From Spirochaetota bacterium (GTDB lineage Bacteria > Spirochaetota > Spirochaetia > ARS1246), in assembly GCA_024275515.1 (NCBI GenBank), contig JAJRYZ010000006.1, forward strand, positions 1-33,419: DNA of 33,419 bases, written 5' to 3'. The notes beneath the pieces are model-generated. The model had not been told where the DNA came from and ran no database searches. It saw only the letters and a list, made by a program, of their open reading frames with translations. Of the stretch, positions 4,134-15,828 are shown piece after piece. Within the stretch, counting starts at the first letter, position 1. Every line of letters begins with the position of its first letter. The translations under genes and the position numbers were made by a program.

Positions 4134-5332
4134 CCTTCCTCCCGCCGGGCCGCTTCGAGTATCGCCGCAACATCGCTCGAATCAAGCCGACAAGGCGTGT
4201 TCTTCGGCGACGCGCTTCGAGCGACCGTGTCGAGCATCGCGCTCCGGTAACCCAACGAGTCGAGCGATCGAAGACGCGTCGCGACTCTCCATTCCGACAG
4301 CGCGTCGGCAAGACGGGCCGAAGCGTCCGCATCACACGCCTCGGCGACGGCCGGGTCCGTGGCGCGCAGGAGTATTCGCGCCGCCTCCGCGTACCGTGCA
4401 AGCGAGGCGCGCGCCTCGCGGCCGTCTGTGGCGGCGAGCTTCTCCGCGACGAGGCGAACCGCCGGGCCGACAAGCGCTGCGCACAGCGCCCCGTGTGGCG
4501 CCGCGACGAGCGAGCCGAGCGGCGAAGCGAGCCCGTGTACGATCCCAAGACCCGCGTTCGCCAGAGCTATCCCCGAAAGGTACGCCGCGTACGCCATACC
4601 GAATCTCGCTTCGACATCGTCGGGCCGGTCCACGACTCGCGCGAACGACGATCCCGCCGCCGCAAGTCCCTCGCGGCACAGCGCATCGGAAAGCGGCGTC
4701 GCGCCGGTTGAGACGAAAGCTTCGACAAGCTGCGTAATCGCGTCGAGTCCCGAGGCGGCGGTCACCGCGGGCGGGCAGCTGAGTTGAAGCACGGGGTCGA
4801 GGACCGCGACATCCGGTACATAGGCGTCGTGACGCAACGATTTCTTGTAAGACCCGACCCTGGTGACGACGGCGTTCTTCGTCGCTTCGGACCCCGTCCC
4901 GGCGGTGGTGGGGACGGCGAACAACGGAGCGCGCGCAGGTGGGGGCGGGCGCGTTCCGACCCCTTCAAGGAACTCCTCGATCGACCCGCCGTCGTCGGCG
5001 CGCAACATCGCCGCGACCGCTTTACCGGTGTCGAGCACGCTCCCGCCCCCGACGGCGAGAACCAGACTCGGCGGGTCGGGTTTTAGCTCCGCCGAGATCG
5101 AATCGATCAGCGAGGGCGACGGCTCGCCTTTCACCGTAAAATGACGCACCCGCCCGCCGCCGGATGCATACTCCTCGACGGCGATGTGGAACTTCGAACC
5201 CGGGAACCAGCCGGCGCCGCTCAAGAGTGCAATGTCGGTCGGACTCTCCGATTCCATCCGCGTGAACAATTCGTCAAAGCTCCCGGGCCCGGCCAGCAAC
5301 TCCGGCGTGCGAGAGAAAGAGAACGGTTTCAT
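4130..5332 (-). CDS. Iron-containing (group III) alcohol dehydrogenase
   Basis: This is a 400-aa NAD(P)-dependent alcohol/aldehyde oxidoreductase. The cofactor loop GGGSVLDTGKA and the PTTAGTGSEATKNAVV block are classic for the family. Metal positions, compared with E. coli FucO, read D197, Q201, H266 (GIVHGLASPLG) and H280 (PHG). The second ligand, normally His in DAxTHAxE, is Gln here (DAITQLVE), a substitution I believe occurs in some subfamilies. I chose the ATG at 5332, giving MKPFSFSRTP, a family-like N-terminus. A GTG at 5380 would add 16 atypical residues. The gene overlaps the glycerol-1-phosphate dehydrogenase start by 4 bases. Lactaldehyde, butanol-like or polyol substrates are all possible; the sequence does not decide. 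Confidence 0.88.
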   Translation of the reverse strand: MKPFSFSRTPELLAGPGSFDELFTRMESESPTDIALLSGAGWFPGSKFHIAVEEYASGGGRVRHFTVKGEPSPSLIDSISAELKPDPPSLVLAVGGGSVLDTGKAVAAMLRADDGGSIEEFLEGVGTRPPPPARAPLFAVPTTAGTGSEATKNAVVTRVGSYKKSLRHDAYVPDVAVLDPVLQLSCPPAVTAASGLDAITQLVEAFVSTGATPLSDALCREGLAAAGSSFARVVDRPDDVEARFGMAYAAYLSGIALANAGLGIVHGLASPLGSLVAAPHGALCAALVGPAVRLVAEKLAATDGREARASLARYAEAARILLRATDPAVAEACDADASARLADALSEWRVATRLRSLDSLGYRSAMLDTVARSASPKNTPCRLDSSDVAAILEAARREEG

Positions 5333-5433
5333 CGCTACAGAGTATCGATTCGGGAATCGCGTTTCCACCCCGGCGCACACACCGAGTCCGCCGCGGTGAA
5401 GCCCCCGGCGATGTGGTGTATCATCGACCGATC

Positions 5434-5925
5434 ATGTCGAAACGAAGCTACGCTCGTCCCACGTGGGACGAGTATTTCATGGAAGTCGCCGACGCCATTT
5501 CCAAGCGAGCCACCTGCGACCGCGGCAGAAGCGGGTGCGTTATCGCGAAGGACAAGCAGCTGCTCGTAACCGGGTACGTCGGGTCTCCGCAGGGACTTCC
5601 CCATTGCGACGACGTCGGCCACCAGATGAAGAGAATCATCCACGAGGACGGCGCGATCACCCGGCATTGCGTACGAACGGTGCACGCCGAACAGAACGCG
5701 ATCTGCCAGGCCGCCAAGCGTGGGATCGCGATCGACGGAGCCACGCTCTACTGCAGGATGACGCCGTGCCGGACCTGCGCCATGCTCATTATCAACTGCG
5801 GCATCGTACGCGTCGTATGCGAAAAAAAGTACCACGCCGGAGCGGAGTCGGAGCGAATGTTCGAAGAAGCCGGAATTGAGCTCGAGTTCCGATCCGATGA
5901 AACGGTTTCCTACCAAAACCAGTGA
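5434..5925 (+). CDS. comEB: Deoxycytidylate (dCMP) deaminase
   Basis: This 163-aa cytoplasmic zinc enzyme converts dCMP to dUMP, the precursor for thymidylate synthesis. It belongs to the CDA/ComEB family. The zinc and proton-shuttle motif HAEQNAI (H84, E86) is followed by TPCRTCAMLI with ligands C112 and C115. Further N-terminal, GYVGSPQGLPHC (48-58) and the H in RHCVRTVHAE match ComEB enzymes. Length is typical. The ATG at 5434 (MSKRSYARPTWDEYF) is preferred over an in-frame GTG at 5413. No strong ribosome binding site is visible before either. It is divergent from the alcohol dehydrogenase; the 101-base gap includes a perfect 6-base stem at 5346-5359. Confidence 0.93.
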   Translation: MSKRSYARPTWDEYFMEVADAISKRATCDRGRSGCVIAKDKQLLVTGYVGSPQGLPHCDDVGHQMKRIIHEDGAITRHCVRTVHAEQNAICQAAKRGIAIDGATLYCRMTPCRTCAMLIINCGIVRVVCEKKYHAGAESERMFEEAGIELEFRSDETVSYQNQ

Positions 5926-5960
5926 TCCGGCCCGACCGCGCATGTCGCCGGCGAACGATC

Positions 5961-5989
5961 TTGCGTCGGTGGATAGGCGCGCTTACAAT
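5961..5989 (+). promoter_or_regulatory. Predicted promoter of the secreted 229-aa protein
   Basis: TTGCGT at 5961-5966, a 17-base spacer and TACAAT at 5984-5989 give a reasonable sigma70-like promoter. Transcription would begin near 5996, just ahead of the AAGGAG ribosome binding site at 6009-6014 that serves the ATG at 6021. This suggests the secreted protein has its own promoter despite the dCMP deaminase gene immediately upstream. Confidence 0.45.
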
Positions 5990-6020
5990 AAGACATTCAG
6001 ACGGAACGAAGGAGTTGGAC

Positions 6021-6710
6021 ATGATCATGAAAAGAGTCGCCACGCCATGTATCGTCGTGCTGCTGCTCGCGGTCGCGACGGGAACTTCCGCCCAAACCGC
6101 CGTCTATCGCCATTCCTTCTCAACCTCGGCGGAACTTCCCAAAGCCGCCGGAGTATGGCAGATACGCGGCGGACGACTTCACCAGAGCGACGTGACGGAG
6201 CGCCTCGCCAAGATAAACGTCCCGGTCCCGCAATCCGGCGAGATGCAATACGCATTCGACGTGCGCTATGAAGGCGGCGGAATCGAAGACATGATGGGCG
6301 GCTTCGGAATCCACGTCTTCGTCGACGAGGCATACGACGGTAGAAGCTGGGGTAACGGAAACTCGTATCTTCTCTGGCTGAACTACGATCCGAACGCGTC
6401 CTACGGATCGAAAGGCTTTATGGCCCAGATCTACCGGAGCTACTCGCCCACCGGGATGGAGCTTGTCGCCGAGTACGATCTGAACGCCTTCGCGCGCTAT
6501 CTGTCGACCGACAACGCGAAAACGATCGTCAGGGCCCGCATAAAGGTCGACGCACAAACGGGGTCGGTATGGGTCGAGGACCCGACGCTGCGCGGTTACG
6601 GATACAGGTTCGACCTCGGGGAACCGCTCGGGTCGGGCAACTACGTCTCGCTCAGAACGAACAGCCTGGCGCTCAGCTTCGACAACATAGAGATCACCAA
6701 ACTGCGCTGA
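6021..6710 (+). CDS. Secreted protein of unknown function, lectin/LamG-like fold likely
   Basis: This 229-aa protein has a clear export signal: Lys-Arg, a hydrophobic core (IVVLLLAVATG) and a probable cleavage after TSAQ near residue 25. The mature part is rich in aromatic beta-strand segments, such as VWQIRGGRLHQ, MQYAFDVRYEGGG and YLLWLNYDP, and ends with LALSFDNIEITKLR. That ending is typical of concanavalin-like sandwich domains, in which a final strand reports a small difference in a buried ligand-binding sheet. I do not recognise a family with certainty. AAGGAG at 6009-6014 sits 6 bases before the ATG at 6021 and decides this start over longer in-frame options. A role in binding a carbohydrate or in the periplasm is a guess from fold only. 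Confidence 0.75.
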   Translation: MIMKRVATPCIVVLLLAVATGTSAQTAVYRHSFSTSAELPKAAGVWQIRGGRLHQSDVTERLAKINVPVPQSGEMQYAFDVRYEGGGIEDMMGGFGIHVFVDEAYDGRSWGNGNSYLLWLNYDPNASYGSKGFMAQIYRSYSPTGMELVAEYDLNAFARYLSTDNAKTIVRARIKVDAQTGSVWVEDPTLRGYGYRFDLGEPLGSGNYVSLRTNSLALSFDNIEITKLR

Positions 6711-6770
6711 GCCGGCGACTCGACGCCACGGCGTATATCGAAGAGGCGTCCTACCGGGCGATCGGCGCGC

Positions 6771-6971
6771 TCACGAGGAGATTACCGCGATCTCTTCCTG
6801 CTTTTTCCCGTGAGCTATCGCCGCCTTGCACTGTTTGCACACCTCGTGCTTCTTGTCGCCGACCTGCACCTCGTAGAGCAGTTTGACCCCCGTACGTTTG
6901 CAGACCGGGCACGTGCCTCTTCCTTTTTTCGTCAGTTCGTCTATTCCGTGGCCTCGATGCGCTTTCGACAT
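6771..6971 (-). CDS. Small zinc-ribbon-like protein, 66 aa
   Basis: This is a short basic protein starting MSKAHRGHGI. It has two knuckles, CPVC at 21-24 and CKQC at 45-48, separated by 20 residues including the strand VKLLYEVQV, so it very likely folds as a single zinc ribbon. I associate similar small proteins with spirochaetes, but no function is known to me; nucleic-acid or ribosome binding would suit the basic character. The ATG at 6971 has an AAGGGG ribosome binding site 5 bases upstream and is preferred over an in-frame GTG two codons earlier. A promoter is visible at 7008-7036. The gene faces the secreted protein gene convergently. Confidence 0.8.
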   Translation of the reverse strand: MSKAHRGHGIDELTKKGRGTCPVCKRTGVKLLYEVQVGDKKHEVCKQCKAAIAHGKKQEEIAVISS

Positions 6972-7007
6972 TCCCACCCCTTCGTTTTCGTTGAGTTAAG
7001 ACACTAC

Positions 7008-7036
7008 TATATAACGCCGCCGCGCCGCGAGGTCAA
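7008..7036 (-). promoter_or_regulatory. Predicted promoter of the 66-aa zinc-ribbon gene
   Basis: On the minus strand TTGACC (7036-7031) and TATATA (7013-7008) are spaced by 17 bases, close to the sigma70 consensus. Transcription would start near 7001 and give a leader of about 30 bases ending in an AAGGGG ribosome binding site before the ATG at 6971. Confidence 0.5.
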
Positions 7037-7372
7037 TACGAACGACCCGACCGGAAGCAAATTCGAAATCTTGCCTGCCGGATGCCGAATTGCCGCCTAC
7101 GGCAACCGAAAAGACGCCGTTTTCGTGACGATTCGGCGATTCTTCCGCCTAAACGGTCGGAAAACGGGCCGGCGAGCGATGCTCGCAGCGTCACATTTCG
7201 AATTCCTGAGGCGACCTCCGGAACCAAATCGGGACGGATCGTGGGGCGCCGCGAGCGGCACGTGGCGACACACCCCGGTGATATAAGCCGCTCCCCGGCG
7301 AGGTCGGGCGTCGCCGTTTCACCGCACCGGCCGCACTTCGCCGGCGATTGTCGAGGAGAAGCGGTTGCGGAA
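7037..7372. other. Non-coding gap with clustered inverted repeats
   Basis: No convincing coding sequence is seen here. The stretch contains TTGCCG/CGGCAA (7090-7095 with 7100-7105), CGAAAA/TTTTCG (7107-7112 with 7120-7125) and CCGTTTTC/GAAAACGG (7117-7124 with 7160-7167). GCGAGC/GCTCGC (7172-7177 with 7181-7186) lies next to these. The second and third pairs share bases and exclude each other. On the minus strand, which is the transcript direction of both flanking genes, the last stem is followed by a short GTTTT. It may include a weak terminator for the nucleosidase gene or a small structured RNA. I match no known RNA family. Confidence 0.35.
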
Positions 7373-8062
7373 TCACACGCGCGCGGCCAGATAGCTCACG
7401 AATTCGGCGATTCGTTCGGCGGCGACCGGAAGAAAAGTCGCGAAATCCCGCGGCGCGGTCCCGTCGGCCTTGTCCGATATCACGCGGGCGAGCAGGAACG
7501 GCACCGCGCCGAAGGATGCGGCGATCGCGGCGCCGGCGCCTTCCATTTCCACCGCAACGCCGCCGAGCTCTCCGGTCAGATAGTCGCGCTCGCGCCTGTC
7601 GGCGGCCGAGAAAAAACGATCTCCCGTCAAAACACGACCGGTCACGCAGCGACCCGTCGAAGGGCGGTAACCACGCGCGACTTTGAAAAGACGCGGGTCC
7701 GAAGCGATCCATCGTATCCGGTCGTAAGGCACCTCGCCCCGGGCAAAACCGAAGACGGTCGCGTCCAGATCGTGCTGAAGACATTCGGTCGCGACGACGA
7801 GGTCGCCGATTTCGAGCGCCGGATCGAGCGCCCCGGCGATACCGACGTAAACCACCGATTCGGGTCGGTACCTGTCGATCACATGCGTCGTTACCGCGGC
7901 GGCGCACGCTTTCCCGACGCCCGACCGCGCGCAGCAGAGCCGCCTCTCGCCGAGCCGCCCCTCGCGAACTACGATCAAGCCCCACCGATGTTCCGACTCG
8001 ACGCGCATCCGTCTGCGAACACCGTCGATTTCACTTTCCATCGCTCCGACAACGGCAATCAT
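7373..8062 (-). CDS. mtnN: 5'-methylthioadenosine/S-adenosylhomocysteine nucleosidase
   Basis: This cytoplasmic hydrolase removes adenine from methylthioadenosine and S-adenosylhomocysteine, by-products of polyamine synthesis and methylation. The 229-aa length is typical. GAMESEI (6-12, with E11 at the E12 position of E. coli), the [11 protein letters not shown] block (71-81), VEMEGAG (171-177, E174) and ISDKAD (195-200, catalytic D197) are all present. A closely related futalosine hydrolase is the main alternative. The ATG at 8062 gives the canonical N-terminus [11 protein letters not shown] and is preceded by GGGAG at a good distance. The gene is divergent from dapL across 87 bases; TATA-like boxes occur there, but no good -35 is seen for either side. 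Confidence 0.92.
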
Positions 8063-8149: not shown

Positions 8150-9388
8150 ATGATACGCATCAACGCCAACTATCAAAAACTTCACGCGAGCTACCTCTTT
8201 TCGGACATCGCCACAAGGGTCGCCGCTTTTCAGGCCGAGCATCCCGGCGCGCGGATCATCAAAATGGGAATCGGAGACATTACCCGGGCGTTGCCTTCGG
8301 CGTGCGTCGCGGCCTTTCACTCGGCCGTCGACGAAATGGCTTCGGACGAGACGTTTCGAGGATACGGTCCCGAACAGGGATACGAGTTTCTTCGCACGGC
8401 GATTGCGACCGCCGAGTTCCGTTCGCGCGGCGTCGACATATCGGCCGACGAGGTGTTCATCTCCGACGGCGCAAAATGTGATACGGGGAACATCCAGGAA
8501 CTGTTCTCAACCGACGTGGTCGTCGCGGTTCAGGACCCGGTCTATCCGGTCTATGTCGACACGAACGTCATGGCGGGACGCACCGGCGAATGGAGGCGGG
8601 GTCGATACGAGGGCATGGTCTATCTGGAGTCGACCGAGAAAAACGGGTTCGTCCCGGAACCGCCGGTCGACCTGGTCGATCCGATCGACCTGGTGTATTT
8701 GTGCTTTCCGAACAATCCGACCGGAAGCGTTGCCACCAAGGAACAACTGCAGCGATGGGTGGACTACGCGATCGAACACAAGGCGTTGCTCCTCTTCGAC
8801 GCCGCATACGTCGCCTTTATCCGCGACGATTCGATTCCGCACTCCATTTTCGAGATTCCGGGAGCGCGCGAGGTGGCGATCGAGTTTCGAAGCTTCTCCA
8901 AATCCGCGGGGTTCACCGGCACACGCTGCGCCTATACGATCATCCCGAAGAGCTGCAGGGCCTTTTCATCCGACGGCGCTTCGGTAGCGATTCATGAGCT
9001 GTGGAATCGTCGCCACACCACCAAGTTCAACGGTGTTTCTTATCCGGTTCAGCGCGCGGCGGAGGCGGTTTTCTCGCCTGAAGGCGCAAAACAGACGCGG
9101 GAGCTTATCGACTACTACCTGGAGAACGCGAGCGTTATCCGCGAAAGGCTTTCCGAACTCGGTTTTCGGGTTTACGGCGGCCTTCACTCGCCCTATATCT
9201 GGGCCGGCGCCGAATCGAGACGGACCGACTCGTGGGAGTTCTTCGATCGTCTCCTCCACAAGGCCCATGTGGTATGTACTCCGGGAAGCGGGTTCGGCGC
9301 GTGCGGAGAAGGGTATGTGAGATTCTCCGCCTTCAACGACCGGGCGTCGGTTGACGAGGCGATGTCGAGGATGAGCGGCGATCTGTAG
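8150..9388 (+). CDS. dapL: LL-diaminopimelate aminotransferase
   Basis: DapL converts tetrahydrodipicolinate directly to LL-diaminopimelate with glutamate as amino donor, a short route to lysine and peptidoglycan precursors used by plants, chlamydiae and spirochaetes. It is a 412-aa class I/II PLP aminotransferase. The start [51 protein letters not shown] and CFPNNPTG are signature blocks. The PLP lysine is K251 in [13 protein letters not shown]. The open frame extends far upstream, but homology begins at the ATG at 8150, with GGGATACGG just before it. The cyclase gene starts 12 bases after its stop, so they are probably cotranscribed. No other lysine-pathway gene is in the window. Confidence 0.95.
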
Positions 9389-9399
9389 CGGAGGTCCGA

Positions 9400-10854
9400 A
9401 TGAAAAAAAAGCGGCGGTCGTCGATCACGGCGAAGATCAACATCATCATCGTCATTACGTTGATCGTCGGAATCGGCGCTATATCCTTTTTCTTTTTCCG
9501 GACTATCACGGGGACCATAGAAGATTCGATATTCCAGAACTTTGAGCAACAGGCCGATATACTTCAAGCCGCGATCGAGAATTTCATGTTGCCCGGTCGC
9601 GCCGAGCTCGCGGTGGGTTTTTTCGACGATTTGAAGAACACGACCTTCAGAGACCTTCTCGGGGAATACTCGGTGCGACTCATTCGCACGAACGGCGTAC
9701 TCGCCTTCTCCGATCTCGCGACGATCAACGACGTGGTGGGACGCGTTCCGGAGTTGGAAGAAGTGTTCGCCGATCCGGTCGAGCGGCTTGTCGACGACAT
9801 GTCGGTGATGAACGCCGAGCTCAACTCCGCGCTGGGACCGCCGCCGCGTGCGATCCGTTTCGAGCTTGCCGACGGCGACCAACACTACATCGGTTCGTAT
9901 GTTCCGCTTCTCAACCTGCCGCAGTGCACGAAGTGCCACGGGGCGGACCACACCGTCCGCGGGGTGGTCGACATCCGGCACAATATCACGCGGCAGCGGC
10001 GCCGGCAGTTCGACGCCGGGGTGCTTTCCGGAGCTTTGTTCGTTTCTATCGTTCTGCTTTTGACCGTCGTTTTGTCGTTGTTTCTCAGACGGACCATCGT
10101 TCGTCCGGTCAAGACGATCGGCGTGGTGTGCGCCGATGTTACCAACGGAGATTTCAGCCGACGCGTGCCGGTACGGTCACGTGATGAGATCGGCCGGCTC
10201 GGCGAAACGGTCAATACGATGGTCGAAGGACTTCACGAGCGGTTCGAGCTCCAGAAGTACGTCTCTTCGACGACCCTCGAATCGTTGCTCGGCGACAAGA
10301 CCGGCAGCACCTGTTCGTTGACGATGCTTTTTTCCGACATTCGCGGATTCACCAGTTACACCGAAAAACGCTCGGCGGCGGAAGTCGTATCGCACCTGAA
10401 TGCGGTGCTCAACGCGCAGAGCGAGATCATTCAGGCGAAGAACGGCGATATCGACAAGTATGTGGGAGACGAGATCGTTGCGATGTTCAGCGAAGAAACG
10501 CAGGCGATCGACGCCATATCGGCGGCGCTCGCGATTCAGCAAGAATTGACGCGAAACGACGATCCAGCGTACGACGGGTTGCAGGTGGGCATCGGTATCA
10601 ACACCGGGGAAGTCATTCTCGGCATGATCGGCTCGGAACGACGGGCCGACTATACGGTGATCGGAGACAACGTCAACACCGCCTCACGGCTGTGCGACGC
10701 CGCCGAACCCGGCGGGATTCTCATCGCCGAGTCGACCTACCGGGCGGCCGCCGACCGGATCGAGACCGACGGTCCGTACCGGCTCAAAGCGAAAGGCAAA
10801 GGCGAATACGTCAAAGTCTACCGCGTGATCGGTCTGAAAGAACGTCGACGGTGA
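9400..10854 (+). CDS. Membrane class III adenylyl cyclase with periplasmic haem-c (CxxCH) sensor and HAMP domain
   Basis: This 484-aa inner-membrane protein would make cAMP. Order: TM1 at about 11-33, a periplasmic sensor at about 34-206, TM2 at about 207-230, HAMP to about 285, then a class III cyclase domain from about 305. The sensor ends with C176-T-K-C179-H180 in PQCTKCHGADHTVRGVVDI, a covalent haem-c attachment motif like that of DUF3365/Tll0287-type sensors. Cyclase metal ligands D313 (FSDIRGFT) and D357 (YVGDEI), adenine-selecting K353 and D417, and transition-state N426 and R430 (NVNTASR) are all present, so it should be active and ATP-specific. GGAGG lies 5 bases before the ATG, which begins with an A8 run. 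A P460 lipoprotein gene follows. Confidence 0.92.
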   Translation: MKKKRRSSITAKINIIIVITLIVGIGAISFFFFRTITGTIEDSIFQNFEQQADILQAAIENFMLPGRAELAVGFFDDLKNTTFRDLLGEYSVRLIRTNGVLAFSDLATINDVVGRVPELEEVFADPVERLVDDMSVMNAELNSALGPPPRAIRFELADGDQHYIGSYVPLLNLPQCTKCHGADHTVRGVVDIRHNITRQRRRQFDAGVLSGALFVSIVLLLTVVLSLFLRRTIVRPVKTIGVVCADVTNGDFSRRVPVRSRDEIGRLGETVNTMVEGLHERFELQKYVSSTTLESLLGDKTGSTCSLTMLFSDIRGFTSYTEKRSAAEVVSHLNAVLNAQSEIIQAKNGDIDKYVGDEIVAMFSEETQAIDAISAALAIQQELTRNDDPAYDGLQVGIGINTGEVILGMIGSERRADYTVIGDNVNTASRLCDAAEPGGILIAESTYRAAADRIETDGPYRLKAKGKGEYVKVYRVIGLKERRR

Positions 10855-10978
10855 AGCGTCGCAGTAGTTTCCGCCGGAGCACGACCACAACCCGCGCCGA
10901 CCGGAGCGGCGCCGGCCGACGAACCGCCGGCCGGCGTCTGCAGGCTCCGCTCGCGGAGTTCGTCAAGGAGGCAATCGG

Positions 10979-11506
10979 ATGAAAAAACAGCTTTCGGCCG
11001 GTTTGCTCGTGCTGCTCGCCGGCGCGCTCCTTTCGTCGTGCGACGGAAAGGAAACGAAACCGGTATTCGACGAGGACTACAAAACGTGGGAACGCACCGT
11101 CGAAGGGCCTTTGACCTACCCGATTCCGGGACACGGCGCCAAGCGACGCGGCATATTCATCAACGAGATCGGAACGACGGTCACCGTCGCGGACGTCGGC
11201 GGTGTCCGCCGGTACGATTACCCCGTCGGAACGATCATCGCAAAGGAGAATTACGCCGATCTCGAAGGCACGAAGCTCGATAACCTGACGATCATGATCA
11301 AAGCGCCCGACGATCCCAGATCGGTGGGCGGGTGGATCTGGGTCAATAAAAACGTCGATACCGGAGAGGAGATGATATTCAGCGACGGCGAGTTCTGTTT
11401 GACCTGCCATATCACCGCAAATAAAGATCATCCCTACGGCGAGGGAAACCCCGACAACGAGTTCCGCGACTACGTGTTCTTTCCCTATCGGTCCCGGTCG
11501 GAGTAA
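10979..11506 (+). CDS. Cytochrome P460-family haem-c lipoprotein
   Basis: This 175-aa exported lipoprotein has a lipobox LLSSC with acylated C21. The mature part follows the P460 domain pattern: a YKTWERT start, GIFINEIG, the YPVGTIIAKE strand with K89, IMIKAPDD, GGWIWVN, the haem-c site C140-L-T-C143-H144, and a DYVFFPY end. Known P460 proteins oxidise hydroxylamine or NO; the related cytochromes c'-beta bind NO. Nitrosomonas P460 has a lysine cross-linked to haem; whether K89 plays that part here is unknown. AAGGAG at 10965-10970 is 8 bases before the ATG. The gene lies 124 bases after a cyclase that also has a periplasmic CxxCH motif. Cytochrome c maturation genes must lie elsewhere. Confidence 0.87.
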   Translation: MKKQLSAGLLVLLAGALLSSCDGKETKPVFDEDYKTWERTVEGPLTYPIPGHGAKRRGIFINEIGTTVTVADVGGVRRYDYPVGTIIAKENYADLEGTKLDNLTIMIKAPDDPRSVGGWIWVNKNVDTGEEMIFSDGEFCLTCHITANKDHPYGEGNPDNEFRDYVFFPYRSRSE

Positions 11507-11597: not shown

Positions 11598-12554
11598 ATG
11601 GATACCATCGACACCGCCGCCGTCTCGCGTACCGTCCGGGAATTGAAATCGAGAATCCACACGGTCTTCGTGGGCAAGGAAAGGGCCGTGCATAACCTCC
11701 TGATCGGATTTCTGTCCGGGCTGCACGTTCTGATAGAAGACATCCCCGGGCTCGGCAAAACGACCCTGGCGATGACGCTCGCCCGCGCTTCGGGTCTGGA
11801 CTTCGGCCGAATCCAGTTTACGCCCGACATCCTTCCCGGCGACATACTCGGGATGACCGTGTGGAGCGCGGAGAAGCGCGAGTTCGTTTTCAAGGAAGGG
11901 GCGATCATGCATCAGTTCGTCCTTGCCGACGAGATAAATCGCGCCTCGGCGCGGACGCAATCGAGCCTGCTCGAAGCGATGCAAGAACGGACCGTTACGG
12001 TGGACGGACGAACCGTCTCGCTGCCCGAGCCGTTTTTCGTCGTTGCAACGCAGAACCCGAGCAGTTTCACCGGCACCTTTTTGCTGCCCGAATCGCAGAC
12101 CGACCGGTTCGGTGTGTCGCTCTCGATCGGGTATCCGGCGTCCGGCGAAGAAGTGACGATTCTCAAGCGATTCAAGACCGACAACCCCATCGACGACGTG
12201 GTCCCGGTCGTCTCCGGCGAAGAGGTGATGCGCATGCGCGTCGCCGCGCGGCTCGTGCGCACCGACTCAAGGATCGATCAGCTTCTCGTCGCCATAGCCG
12301 AGAATACACGCAAGAGCCCGAAGATACGGCTCGGTATGAGCCCCCGCGCCACTCAGCATCTGATGCTCGCCTCACAAACTCAGGCGCTGTTCGAAGGGCG
12401 TGACTACGTGATTCCCGAAGACGTGCTTGCCGTCGTCCACGGAGTTTTAGCGCACAGGCTCGTGCTTTCCGCCGAAGCGAAAGTCGGAAATCAGAACGTT
12501 CACAACGTTATCGACGAAGTCGTTCGTAAGACCCCGCTTCCGACGGGAATATGA
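11598..12554 (+). CDS. MoxR-family AAA+ ATPase
   Basis: This 318-aa cytoplasmic ATPase is of the MoxR branch, thought to act as a chaperone that matures or controls VWA/DUF58 partner proteins. Walker A is GLGKTT (51-56) and Walker B is VLADE (107-111) followed by INRASARTQSSLLEAMQE, the MoxR hallmark. The sensor strand VVATQNPSS and the arginine finger region (PESQTDRF) are present, with the C-terminal lid after about 200. The ATG at 11598 lacks a strong ribosome binding site. The last four bases overlap the start of the DUF58 gene (ATGA at 12551-12554). The operon MoxR, DUF58, transglutaminase is widespread and usually linked to envelope or stress functions. Confidence 0.93.
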   Translation: MDTIDTAAVSRTVRELKSRIHTVFVGKERAVHNLLIGFLSGLHVLIEDIPGLGKTTLAMTLARASGLDFGRIQFTPDILPGDILGMTVWSAEKREFVFKEGAIMHQFVLADEINRASARTQSSLLEAMQERTVTVDGRTVSLPEPFFVVATQNPSSFTGTFLLPESQTDRFGVSLSIGYPASGEEVTILKRFKTDNPIDDVVPVVSGEEVMRMRVAARLVRTDSRIDQLLVAIAENTRKSPKIRLGMSPRATQHLMLASQTQALFEGRDYVIPEDVLAVVHGVLAHRLVLSAEAKVGNQNVHNVIDEVVRKTPLPTGI

Positions 12555-13786
12555 AGCGACGTCTCCCGTTCTCCGTCCGCTGGGGCGGTGTCGCGGTCTA
12601 CCTCTTTCTGCTCTTGCTCGTGCAGCTCGGGCGGTTCCACATCGGGCAGATGTTCAACTACGCGTTCTTCCTTCTCCTCGCGACGCCGATCGTGAGCCTC
12701 GTGCATCTTATCGTTTCGATCAACAGTCTCAAGTATCACCAGGAGTTCGATACCGATCATCCGGTAAAGGGCGAAGATCTCACTTATACGCTTTTACTCG
12801 CGAACGAATCGCATCTGGGCTCGGCGCCCATGAACATCGGTTTTCGTACCGTTCAGCCCGGTTCGCCGTCGCACATCGAAGATCTCCGTTTGTCTCTTCG
12901 CCGCGGGGAACGTACCGAGAGGACGTATACGATCAGCTGCCCGTACCGCGGCATCTACACCGTCGGGCTGGAGCGGATGGAGCTTACCGATATGCTCGGA
13001 TGGATCACCATATCACGCCCGGTCTGGCATCGCACCTTCTACGTCTACCCGAGAATCATCGATACCGAGTATCCGTTCGCCGTCGGAGACGTAAGCGATC
13101 TGAGCACCGGCCCCAACCCCGGCGCCTCGCAGGACTACTCGCTTTTCGAGAGTCTGGTGCGATATCGAGAGGGTGAAAGCGTCAGACATATGGCGTGGAA
13201 AAAGTTTTTCGCCTTGGGCGAACCCTTTTTAAAGACATACGCGCGCACCTCGCAGCCGGGCATTTCGATATATCTCGATCTGCGACGCGAGGAGGATCCG
13301 GTTCCCGACGTGCTCGAGCGCGAGGACTGCTCGATCGAGATACTCGTTTCGCTCGTCAAGTACTTTCTCGATCGATCGGTTCCCGTGTCGGTGCACGCGA
13401 TGGGACAGAGCAGGTACGGATTCGCCGCGGAGACTCCCGACGATTTCGGATTGTTCCATAAAGACACGGTTAATCTTCTGTTTACGCGGACCGTTTCGCC
13501 GGCGGCGCTCTACCGCGGCGATGCGCACGAAGCGTCGCAGCGAAGGTCGGTGCTCTTTGTCACGCACCTCGTCGACCCGGAAATCGTCGAAATCATGGAG
13601 GACACGATCGAATCCGCCGCAACGGAAGCGCCGGAAATCGCCTGCATACTCAACCAGACGGGGATGGACGAGGCGGGTGTCCGCAAGAGTCGAGACCTGT
13701 TCGACGATTTGCGTGAACGGGGCGGAAAGACGCTCCTCATACGAGGCGCCGAGTCGCTCTCGGGCGACATGAGAGGGGCGCCGTGA
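12551..13786 (+). CDS. DUF58 domain membrane protein
   Basis: This 411-aa protein has two N-terminal membrane segments (about residues 10-29 and 36-57) and then a large cytoplasmic or periplasmic region. The DUF58 core is recognisable from RYREGESVRHMAWKKF followed by LGEPFLKTYAR and the strand ISIYLDLR. DUF58 is related to von Willebrand A-like folds and is the usual partner of MoxR ATPases; its biochemical job is not established. Both ends overlap neighbours by 4 bases, with the MoxR stop at 12554 and the transglutaminase GTG at 13783, which indicates translational coupling and fixed stoichiometry. Confidence 0.9.
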   Translation: MKRRLPFSVRWGGVAVYLFLLLLVQLGRFHIGQMFNYAFFLLLATPIVSLVHLIVSINSLKYHQEFDTDHPVKGEDLTYTLLLANESHLGSAPMNIGFRTVQPGSPSHIEDLRLSLRRGERTERTYTISCPYRGIYTVGLERMELTDMLGWITISRPVWHRTFYVYPRIIDTEYPFAVGDVSDLSTGPNPGASQDYSLFESLVRYREGESVRHMAWKKFFALGEPFLKTYARTSQPGISIYLDLRREEDPVPDVLEREDCSIEILVSLVKYFLDRSVPVSVHAMGQSRYGFAAETPDDFGLFHKDTVNLLFTRTVSPAALYRGDAHEASQRRSVLFVTHLVDPEIVEIMEDTIESAATEAPEIACILNQTGMDEAGVRKSRDLFDDLRERGGKTLLIRGAESLSGDMRGAP

Positions 13787-15828
13787 CGGGGCGGATTGTT
13801 CGGGTCGCGACGGGGTACGTCGTGGCGCTTGTTCCGACGATCGTAGTGTACTTTCTGCTGAACGCCGGTGAGAGCCTCGCGGTCCCGCTTGTTTATTCGA
13901 CAATCGTCGTGACGACCGCTTCGGCCCGACTGTTTCTCTCGCCCGGCCGTCCGAGCAGAGCGCTCCTCGGGCTGGAAACGGCGGTCCAGCTCCTCGGCGC
14001 CGCGGCGATCATTATCAGCCTGAACCTGACTCCCTCATCGGCATATATGGCGTGGTTTCGCCTGGTACAGGACGGCGAGGCGTCGGGCGTACTCTCCTAT
14101 ATGTTTTCGCTCAAGGTCTGCTTTTTCTCGACCGCCGCGGCGACCGCGGTCCTCAAAAGGAACCCGATCGCCACGATGCTTGTGGCGCTTTCGGTCACCT
14201 TGCTGATACTCTACGCGATCTTTCAGTCCGCCGACCTATTCGTCGGCTCGCTCGCCGCGGCGGTCGCCGCAGCATTCGTCGCCGTGTGGACCGGCGCCGG
14301 GGGCACGGCGCGCCGGGCCGTGACGCTTTTTCAGCTCGGCGCGGTTGCCGCTCTCGCGGCATACCCGCTTTCGCGCACTTCACCCGGCGTGTTCAATCCG
14401 CTGGTGAGCGTCGTCCCCGAGCCTGCGATCACCGGATTGGTCGTCGGCGTCTACCCGGAGTTTCCGTTCCTCTACAATATGCCCGGATACGGACATCAGC
14501 TCGGCGAAAGCGACATCGGCGGAAGACCGACTCTCACCGAGCGGCCGGTGTTTTCGGTTACCGGGCGAGCGGGCGAAACGGTCTACCTCCGGACCGCCGT
14601 GTACGAGCTCTACACCGGACGGGGATGGGTACAGCGAACATCGAGATCGACCGGCGCCGGAACGCGCGGCGACGTGTTTACGATGGACGATCCTTCGGGC
14701 TACGACGATCCTCTGCGAGTCGAGGTTCTCATCGACTTCTTTTCAAGCGTTCCCCACACGCTCGACACTCGCGCGATCAACTTCTACCGGGGCGATTTCC
14801 CGCCGCTTCGTTTCGGTAACTTCGACGCCGGTTTTCTCTTCGAAGTTCCCGTCGTGTCGGAAACCGTTTTCTATCTCGACAGAGGGAAACCCGAGCTTCC
14901 GGACAATCCGACCAATCTCGGCGGGTACCTGCAACTTCCCGACGACATCCCCGCGGAGGTGCGCACGCTCGCCGGGCAGCTGGCCGGCGACGATGCTCTG
15001 GAAACCGCCGAGAACATCAAGCGCTTTCTCGCGACGAACTATCTCTACTCGCTCAATACGTCGAAGCCCGCGTCGGGCCGCGACCCGGCGTGGCACTTTC
15101 TACTCGTCGACGGCCGTGGCTATTGCGTGCAATTCGCGACCGCCTTCGCGCTACTCGCGCGGCTAAACGGCATACCGGCCCGCTACGTGTCCGGTTTCCT
15201 GGTGAATATCCCCTACGACTCCGACACGGCCGTCGTCCCCGGCTACGCCTCGCACGCGTGGGTCGAGATATGGTCGCCGAAGAGCGGTTGGACGGTGGCC
15301 GAAGCGACTCCTCCGATGCGACCCGAGTTCTACGACGATCCGACCTACTACGAGACCTACAATCCGTTCGGGAACTCTTACACGGGAAGACAGTTGGAGT
15401 TGATCATGGGAGACAGGATCGCCCCGCGTCCGCCGCGCCTCGGGCGGACCGAAAAGAGCGTCGATCCTCTATCCGTCGTCGCCGCGGTCTTCGGCTCGGG
15501 CGGTGCGGCCGCACTCGTCTGGTTCCTGCTCACCTCAAGCCGTGCGCCCGGAAGCCGGCGGCGCAAGCTCCGACTTGCCGCCCGAAGGTTGCTGCGGCGC
15601 AGCTACCGCGTCGGCGCGACCGATCCGGCGCGTACCGGCTGGAGTGGATGGGGAGAATCCATTCGCGACGAGGCGCCGGAGGCCGCACGGTCCGTCGAGG
15701 TGCTCCATCGCGGTTTTTTTTCCGACGACCCTGTATCGCGCGAAGATATCCGGCGGGTTCGCGAGGCGTGCGGCGCCCTCCCACGGTGGTGGGCCGTCCT
15801 GTTCACGCGCCGCGCGCGTGTCGGGTAG
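13783..15828 (+). CDS. Membrane transglutaminase-like protein (TgpA-type, DUF3488/transglutaminase core)
   Basis: This 681-aa protein has about five or six N-terminal membrane helices in residues 1-210. An extracytoplasmic part holds a transglutaminase-like cysteine-protease fold. A late helix at about 565-585 and a basic C-terminal tail follow. The catalytic triad reads C448 (GRGYCVQFATAF), H491 (SHAWVEIW) and acidic E507 (VAEATPP), the last replacing the usual Asp. The start is the GTG at 13783, preceded by GAGAGGGG and overlapping the DUF58 stop. A T8 run at 15714-15721 near the 3' end could be prone to slippage. It forms the third part of the MoxR-DUF58-TgpA unit and may process peptides or crosslink proteins in the envelope; the substrate is unknown. 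Confidence 0.9.
   Translation: MTGRIVRVATGYVVALVPTIVVYFLLNAGESLAVPLVYSTIVVTTASARLFLSPGRPSRALLGLETAVQLLGAAAIIISLNLTPSSAYMAWFRLVQDGEASGVLSYMFSLKVCFFSTAAATAVLKRNPIATMLVALSVTLLILYAIFQSADLFVGSLAAAVAAAFVAVWTGAGGTARRAVTLFQLGAVAALAAYPLSRTSPGVFNPLVSVVPEPAITGLVVGVYPEFPFLYNMPGYGHQLGESDIGGRPTLTERPVFSVTGRAGETVYLRTAVYELYTGRGWVQRTSRSTGAGTRGDVFTMDDPSGYDDPLRVEVLIDFFSSVPHTLDTRAINFYRGDFPPLRFGNFDAGFLFEVPVVSETVFYLDRGKPELPDNPTNLGGYLQLPDDIPAEVRTLAGQLAGDDALETAENIKRFLATNYLYSLNTSKPASGRDPAWHFLLVDGRGYCVQFATAFALLARLNGIPARYVSGFLVNIPYDSDTAVVPGYASHAWVEIWSPKSGWTVAEATPPMRPEFYDDPTYYETYNPFGNSYTGRQLELIMGDRIAPRPPRLGRTEKSVDPLSVVAAVFGSGGAAALVWFLLTSSRAPGSRRRKLRLAARRLLRRSYRVGATDPARTGWSGWGESIRDEAPEAARSVEVLHRGFFSDDPVSREDIRRVREACGALPRWWAVLFTRRARVG

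Follow-up and report, generated by a model that had tools for sequence, protein, structure and literature searches.

A periplasmic haem-c adenylyl cyclase and its P460-family lipoprotein neighbour are a conserved gene pair in Spirochaetota

Two adjacent genes of a Spirochaetota bacterium each encode a protein with a CxxCH motif, one a membrane adenylyl cyclase and the other a P460-family lipoprotein, and the locus raises the question of whether the two belong together and, if so, what they sense. The window analyzed here, a stretch of 33,419 nucleotides, is one entire contig of a 4.2-Mb draft genome (94.8% complete, 6.5% contamination), and claims on single genomes rest on family searches. A first-pass annotation had proposed a nitrogen-oxide or redox sensing unit that makes cAMP; when the sequence was re-read, both open reading frames, their coordinates and both CxxCH motifs were as it had described (Table 1).

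Table 1. Features of the cyclase-P460 locus, in window coordinates
Feature	Position	Strand	Basis
Membrane adenylyl cyclase, class III, 484 aa	9400..10854	+	ORF call, domain profiles
Periplasmic sensor domain, ~residues 35-207	9502..10020	+	alignment, model, profile
Met63, predicted distal haem ligand	9586-9588	+	alignment with GSU0935
Haem c attachment motif C176-T-K-C179-H180	9925..9939	+	sequence, alignment, model
Cyclase active-site residues D313, K353, D357, T419, N426, R430	10336..10689	+	alignment
GGAGG ribosome-binding site of P460 gene	10967..10971	+	sequence
P460-family haem c lipoprotein, 175 aa, lipobox LSSC21	10979..11506	+	profile, model
Lys89, aligned with cross-link lysine (NsP460 Lys106, McP460 Lys78)	11243..11245	+	PMC11928373 Table 2
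Thr104, at catalytic carboxylate position (NeP460 Glu96, McP460 Asp102)	11288..11290	+	PMC11928373 Table 2
Haem c attachment motif C140-L-T-C143-H144	11396..11410	+	sequence, alignment

For the cyclase, the domain order is a first transmembrane helix (TM1), a periplasmic haem-c Cache-like domain, a second helix (TM2), a HAMP domain (residues 228-280, 54.9 bits) and the cyclase domain (Guanylate_cyc, residues 306-468, 85.7 bits), the last two being Pfam matches. Positive charge at the N terminus (MKKKRRSS) and just after TM2 predicts a periplasmic location for the loop that joins the helices. Alignment revealed the class III residues in place, namely the metal Asp residues D313/D357, the transition-state residues N426/R430 and the specificity pair K353/T419, and the enzyme is predicted to make cAMP, with a preference for ATP that these residues suggest. 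Twelve cNMP-binding matches were identified in the window genome, 11 of them above the cut-off, so that possible cAMP receptors are present. The cyclase gene is preceded by a GGAGG site and starts 11 nt past the end of a class I/II aminotransferase gene (window 8192-9388); similar ORFs precede the cyclase at L051 and L055. At one other locus (L066 of G202, 6244-7797) the cyclase keeps the haem motif and the P460 neighbor and has lost its catalytic residues, with S, A, Y, A and D at the D, K, D, T and N positions, and is possibly a sensor with a different output or a decaying gene.

Profile and model comparison relate the periplasmic domain to the Geobacter haem-c domains GSU0582 and GSU0935 (the sCache_heme group). 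A profile of 33 such domains matches the structures 3b47 (GSU0582, E=6.3e-6) and 3b42 (GSU0935, E=2.7e-5); 3b42 is also matched by the AlphaFold model (pLDDT 88). The CxxCH motif, kept in 33/33 aligned cyclases, lies in a short helix (model residues 170-176, equivalent to 174-180 of the window protein) flanked by strands 157-167 and 182-191, the final two of the Cache-like domain; this is the position reported for sCache_heme (PMC12889525). The window sensor itself scores under the Pfam cut-offs for PF11845 (12.8 bits, cut-off 24.1) and PF21563 (13.7, cut-off 27), and is thus named here a relative of the sCache_heme group and not a curated member; family-wide, matches at E<=0.1 were obtained for PF21563 in 29/33 domains (best 9e-9) and for PF11845 in 19/33. 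Met63 is invariant (33/33) and aligns with Met60 of GSU0935, a distal haem ligand that is replaced by NO or CO (PMC8396549), and from this alignment His180/Met63 ligation of the sensor haem is predicted.

For the lipoprotein, a direct scan with PF16694 gave 27.2 bits, just over the cut-off of 27 and marginal on its own, and the whole-genome search with the same profile matched nothing even though the direct scan reaches the cut-off, reflecting a limit of sensitivity. Assignment to the P460 family comes from the P460 fold together with the CxxCH motif: a profile of 29 family members matches solved P460 and cytochrome c'-beta structures (E=4e-13 to 1e-7), the AlphaFold model (pLDDT 91) matches 7ead, 6hiu and 6hih, and CxxCH is kept in all 29 aligned proteins. 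Conservation of this extent in both families rules out chance motifs, and the earlier claim that both proteins need haem c is supported. The cross-link lysine is kept in 28/29 proteins (K89 was aligned with NsP460 K106 and, by way of L068, with McP460 K78), with Glu in its place at L075, and Arg57, aligned with the McP460 Arg cap, has its counterpart in 25/25 proteins outside the type encoded upstream of the cyclase. In proteins encoded downstream of the cyclase, the haem motif is followed by an additional segment, HPYxDGN...FRD, that the upstream type lacks. At the carboxylate position the window protein has Thr104, and Asp occurs only at L057, L091 and L075, leaving 26/29 proteins without it. 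As the catalytic carboxylate is missing, hydroxylamine oxidation is unlikely, and a hydroxylamine oxidase partner is disfavored. The retention of the lysine without the carboxylate is the 'halfway house' pattern, the function of which is described as unresolved in a review (PMC11928373).

The pair was then followed across 345 Spirochaetota genomes, among which the nearest relative of the window genome is G001, of the same family. The sensor was identified in 23 genomes and is adjoined by a P460 gene in 20 of them, including G322, where the contig ends within the P460 gene; the expectation that the two genes should recur together is thereby borne out. No P460 gene was found near three sensor cyclases of this sample. 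In a second collection, sharing several records with the first, the cyclase lies directly upstream at 19 of 21 P460 loci and the other two are at contig ends; pairs in UASB270 and one SAR324 MAG are included, and the distribution beyond Spirochaetota rests on these two records. Where the P460 gene is downstream, 24/26 pairs overlap or are <=13 nt apart, with a 4-nt overlap in 15/26, and the 124-nt gap of the window pair contains no terminator-like site on the + strand. The two gene orders, P460 after or before the cyclase, fall into separate deep clades of the cyclase tree (support 100/100). The P460 genes upstream of the cyclase (L067, L073, L074, L075) are divergent, and the cyclases of this second arrangement form a clade of their own. 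On these comparisons of sequence and gene order, the cyclase-P460 pairing is real and ancient. That the genes are coincidental operon neighbors with no functional link was already disfavored and is very improbable: adjacency alone is no proof of interaction, but here it spans many families, two gene orders and the SAR324 and UASB270 records.

The tight operon linkage would also suit an arrangement in which the P460 protein serves to clear NO, hydroxylamine or peroxide while the cyclase merely senses the stress, the two sharing regulation and haem c supply without contact. P460 and c'-beta proteins do oxidize hydroxylamine or bind gases (PMC11928373). We consider such detoxification unlikely, since the carboxylate needed for hydroxylamine oxidation is absent in most of the aligned proteins, and a plain detoxifier would be expected apart from the cyclase more often than is seen, the only two clear P460 genes of the phylum sample without an adjoining cyclase being L068 and L070 (cut by contig end). 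The former (1757-2263) is a second, solitary P460 gene of G257; its product has no lipobox and is nearer to canonical P460 (65.7 bits). Downstream of the pair, on the same strand of the window (11598-15828), lie genes for a MoxR-type ATPase, for a 411-aa product that no Pfam family matches and for a protein with a transglutaminase core.

Attachment of haem c depends on a maturation system, and the first-pass annotation had asked for one in the same genome. Cytochrome c assembly genes (PF01578) were detected in 23/23 sensor genomes and in 107/322 others (p=4.8e-11, the related genomes not being independent). The window genome encodes ResB-CcsA on contig C60, most similar to the one encoded near the pair at L086 (66% for CcsA), as well as more Cytochrom_C_asm genes that are system I-like, and absence of haem c maturation is therefore rejected. 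In four genomes (G007, G050, G143, G257) the sole cytochrome c assembly match adjoins the pair, and neither a PF13442 cytochrome nor NrfA nor COX1 was found there. CcsA, in some cases with ResB, is also encoded beside or near the pair at L052, L053, L054, L056 and L086.

It is plausible, at about an even chance in our estimate, that the two genes are a conserved module in which a haem-c cyclase gated by NO or redox state works with a dedicated P460 lipoprotein partner. The inner-membrane cyclase would hold one covalent haem c in its Cache-like domain, ligated by His180/Met63; displacement of Met63, by a ligand (NO being the likeliest) or through a change in haem oxidation, would send a signal via TM2 and HAMP and alter cAMP synthesis. 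The P460 lipoprotein would be a dedicated periplasmic partner of the cyclase with a probably Lys-modified haem, most likely binding NO or a related small molecule, or passing electrons, and may thereby present, buffer or remove the signal at the sensor haem. The sequences themselves show the two haem c motifs, the family assignments, an intact cyclase active site, the old linkage and the co-occurrence with assembly genes; haem loading, the ligand, direct contact between the proteins and the sign of the cAMP response are inferred. A bolder and more tentative version is a two-haem periplasmic receptor, in which the P460 protein, as a dedicated co-receptor with a lysine-modified haem, would capture the ligand or convert it and then pass ligand or electron on to the cyclase haem, and the sole detected assembly gene may serve the pair in some spirochaetes.

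The nitrogen-oxide part of the original proposal fared unevenly: haem c and the linkage stood, Thr104 speaks against the hydroxylamine role, and the genome counts do not favor a tie to NrfA, COX1 or NorB. NrfA was found in 2/20 pair genomes and 50/325 others, and COX1, of the haem-copper oxidase family with NorB, in 3/20 and 72/325; neither was enriched, and neither NrfA nor COX1/NorB was found in the window genome. On these counts a link to ammonifying nitrite reductase or to haem-copper oxidase/NorB is rejected. This pattern is compatible with NO of outside origin but lends no weight to a connection with nitrogen-oxide respiration. Also counting against the proposed module are the sensor scores under the Pfam cut-offs, the three sensors without P460 and the catalytic loss at L066. 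The presence of the pair without NrfA or COX1/NorB suits a redox sensor whose P460 partner transfers electrons and determines whether the sensor haem is oxidized or reduced; Met63 would leave on oxidation, and cAMP would report on oxygen or redox potential in the periplasm, not on NO. A redox-linked Met on/off switch was proposed for GSU0582 and GSU0935 (-156 and -251 mV; PMC8396549), and at L063 (939-6169), in one family, the pair lies near genes for a Fur-family regulator, rubrerythrin and cytochrome bd subunits, neighbors that would also fit oxygen or redox. We regard this redox reading as rather doubtful, since P460-fold proteins are known as ligand binders and enzymes, not carriers (PMC11928373), and the single HAMP-linked domain tested in PMC12889525 acts as an NO sensor, with tight NO binding and no stable O2 complex. 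At L063 a multihaem cytochrome (4850-6169) is encoded directly upstream of the cyclase.

The NO- or redox-gated module, if correct, would tie cAMP signaling to periplasmic haem chemistry in a phylum with poorly known cyclase inputs, and offers a testable role for P460 proteins that have the lysine and lack the catalytic carboxylate; the two-haem receptor, if true, would give 'halfway house' P460 proteins a role in signaling. Judging by the assembly-gene pattern, some spirochaetes may retain haem c maturation for sensing, not respiration.

Among known systems, H-NOX-gated cyclases such as soluble guanylyl cyclase share the logic of a haem-gated class III cyclase, whereas the protein described here is membrane-spanning, with haem c, a periplasmic location, a predicted cAMP product and another sensor fold. 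With cytochrome P460 (McP460, NeP460, NsP460) the partner has in common the fold, CxxCH and the position of the cross-link lysine, and the Arg cap position is as in McP460; it differs in being a lipoprotein, in its gene pairing with a cyclase and in having no catalytic carboxylate, as in inactive NsP460. Cytochrome c'-beta (McCP, TtCP), for which a gas-binding role is proposed, shares the fold, and its residue at the lysine position is Phe or Met (PMC11928373), whereas nearly all P460 partners here keep the lysine. With sCache_heme / DUF3365-Tll0287 (PF11845), GSU0582 and GSU0935, the sensor shares a periplasmic domain, a short CxxCH helix between the last strands and a HAMP-linked output; the window domain is longer before the motif, falls under the Pfam cut-offs and is linked to a P460 lipoprotein. 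The claim that the pairing had not been described agrees with the open-access literature searched, where no description was found, and the novelty lies in the partner: the architecture figure of a 2026 preprint on sCache_heme includes Guanylate_cyc outputs, so that the haem-c-Cache-HAMP-cyclase arrangement is already listed, and its text makes no mention of a P460 lipoprotein (PMC12889525). The cyclase thus belongs among haem-c Cache sensors of known architecture, and its conserved, dedicated P460-type partner appears to be new.
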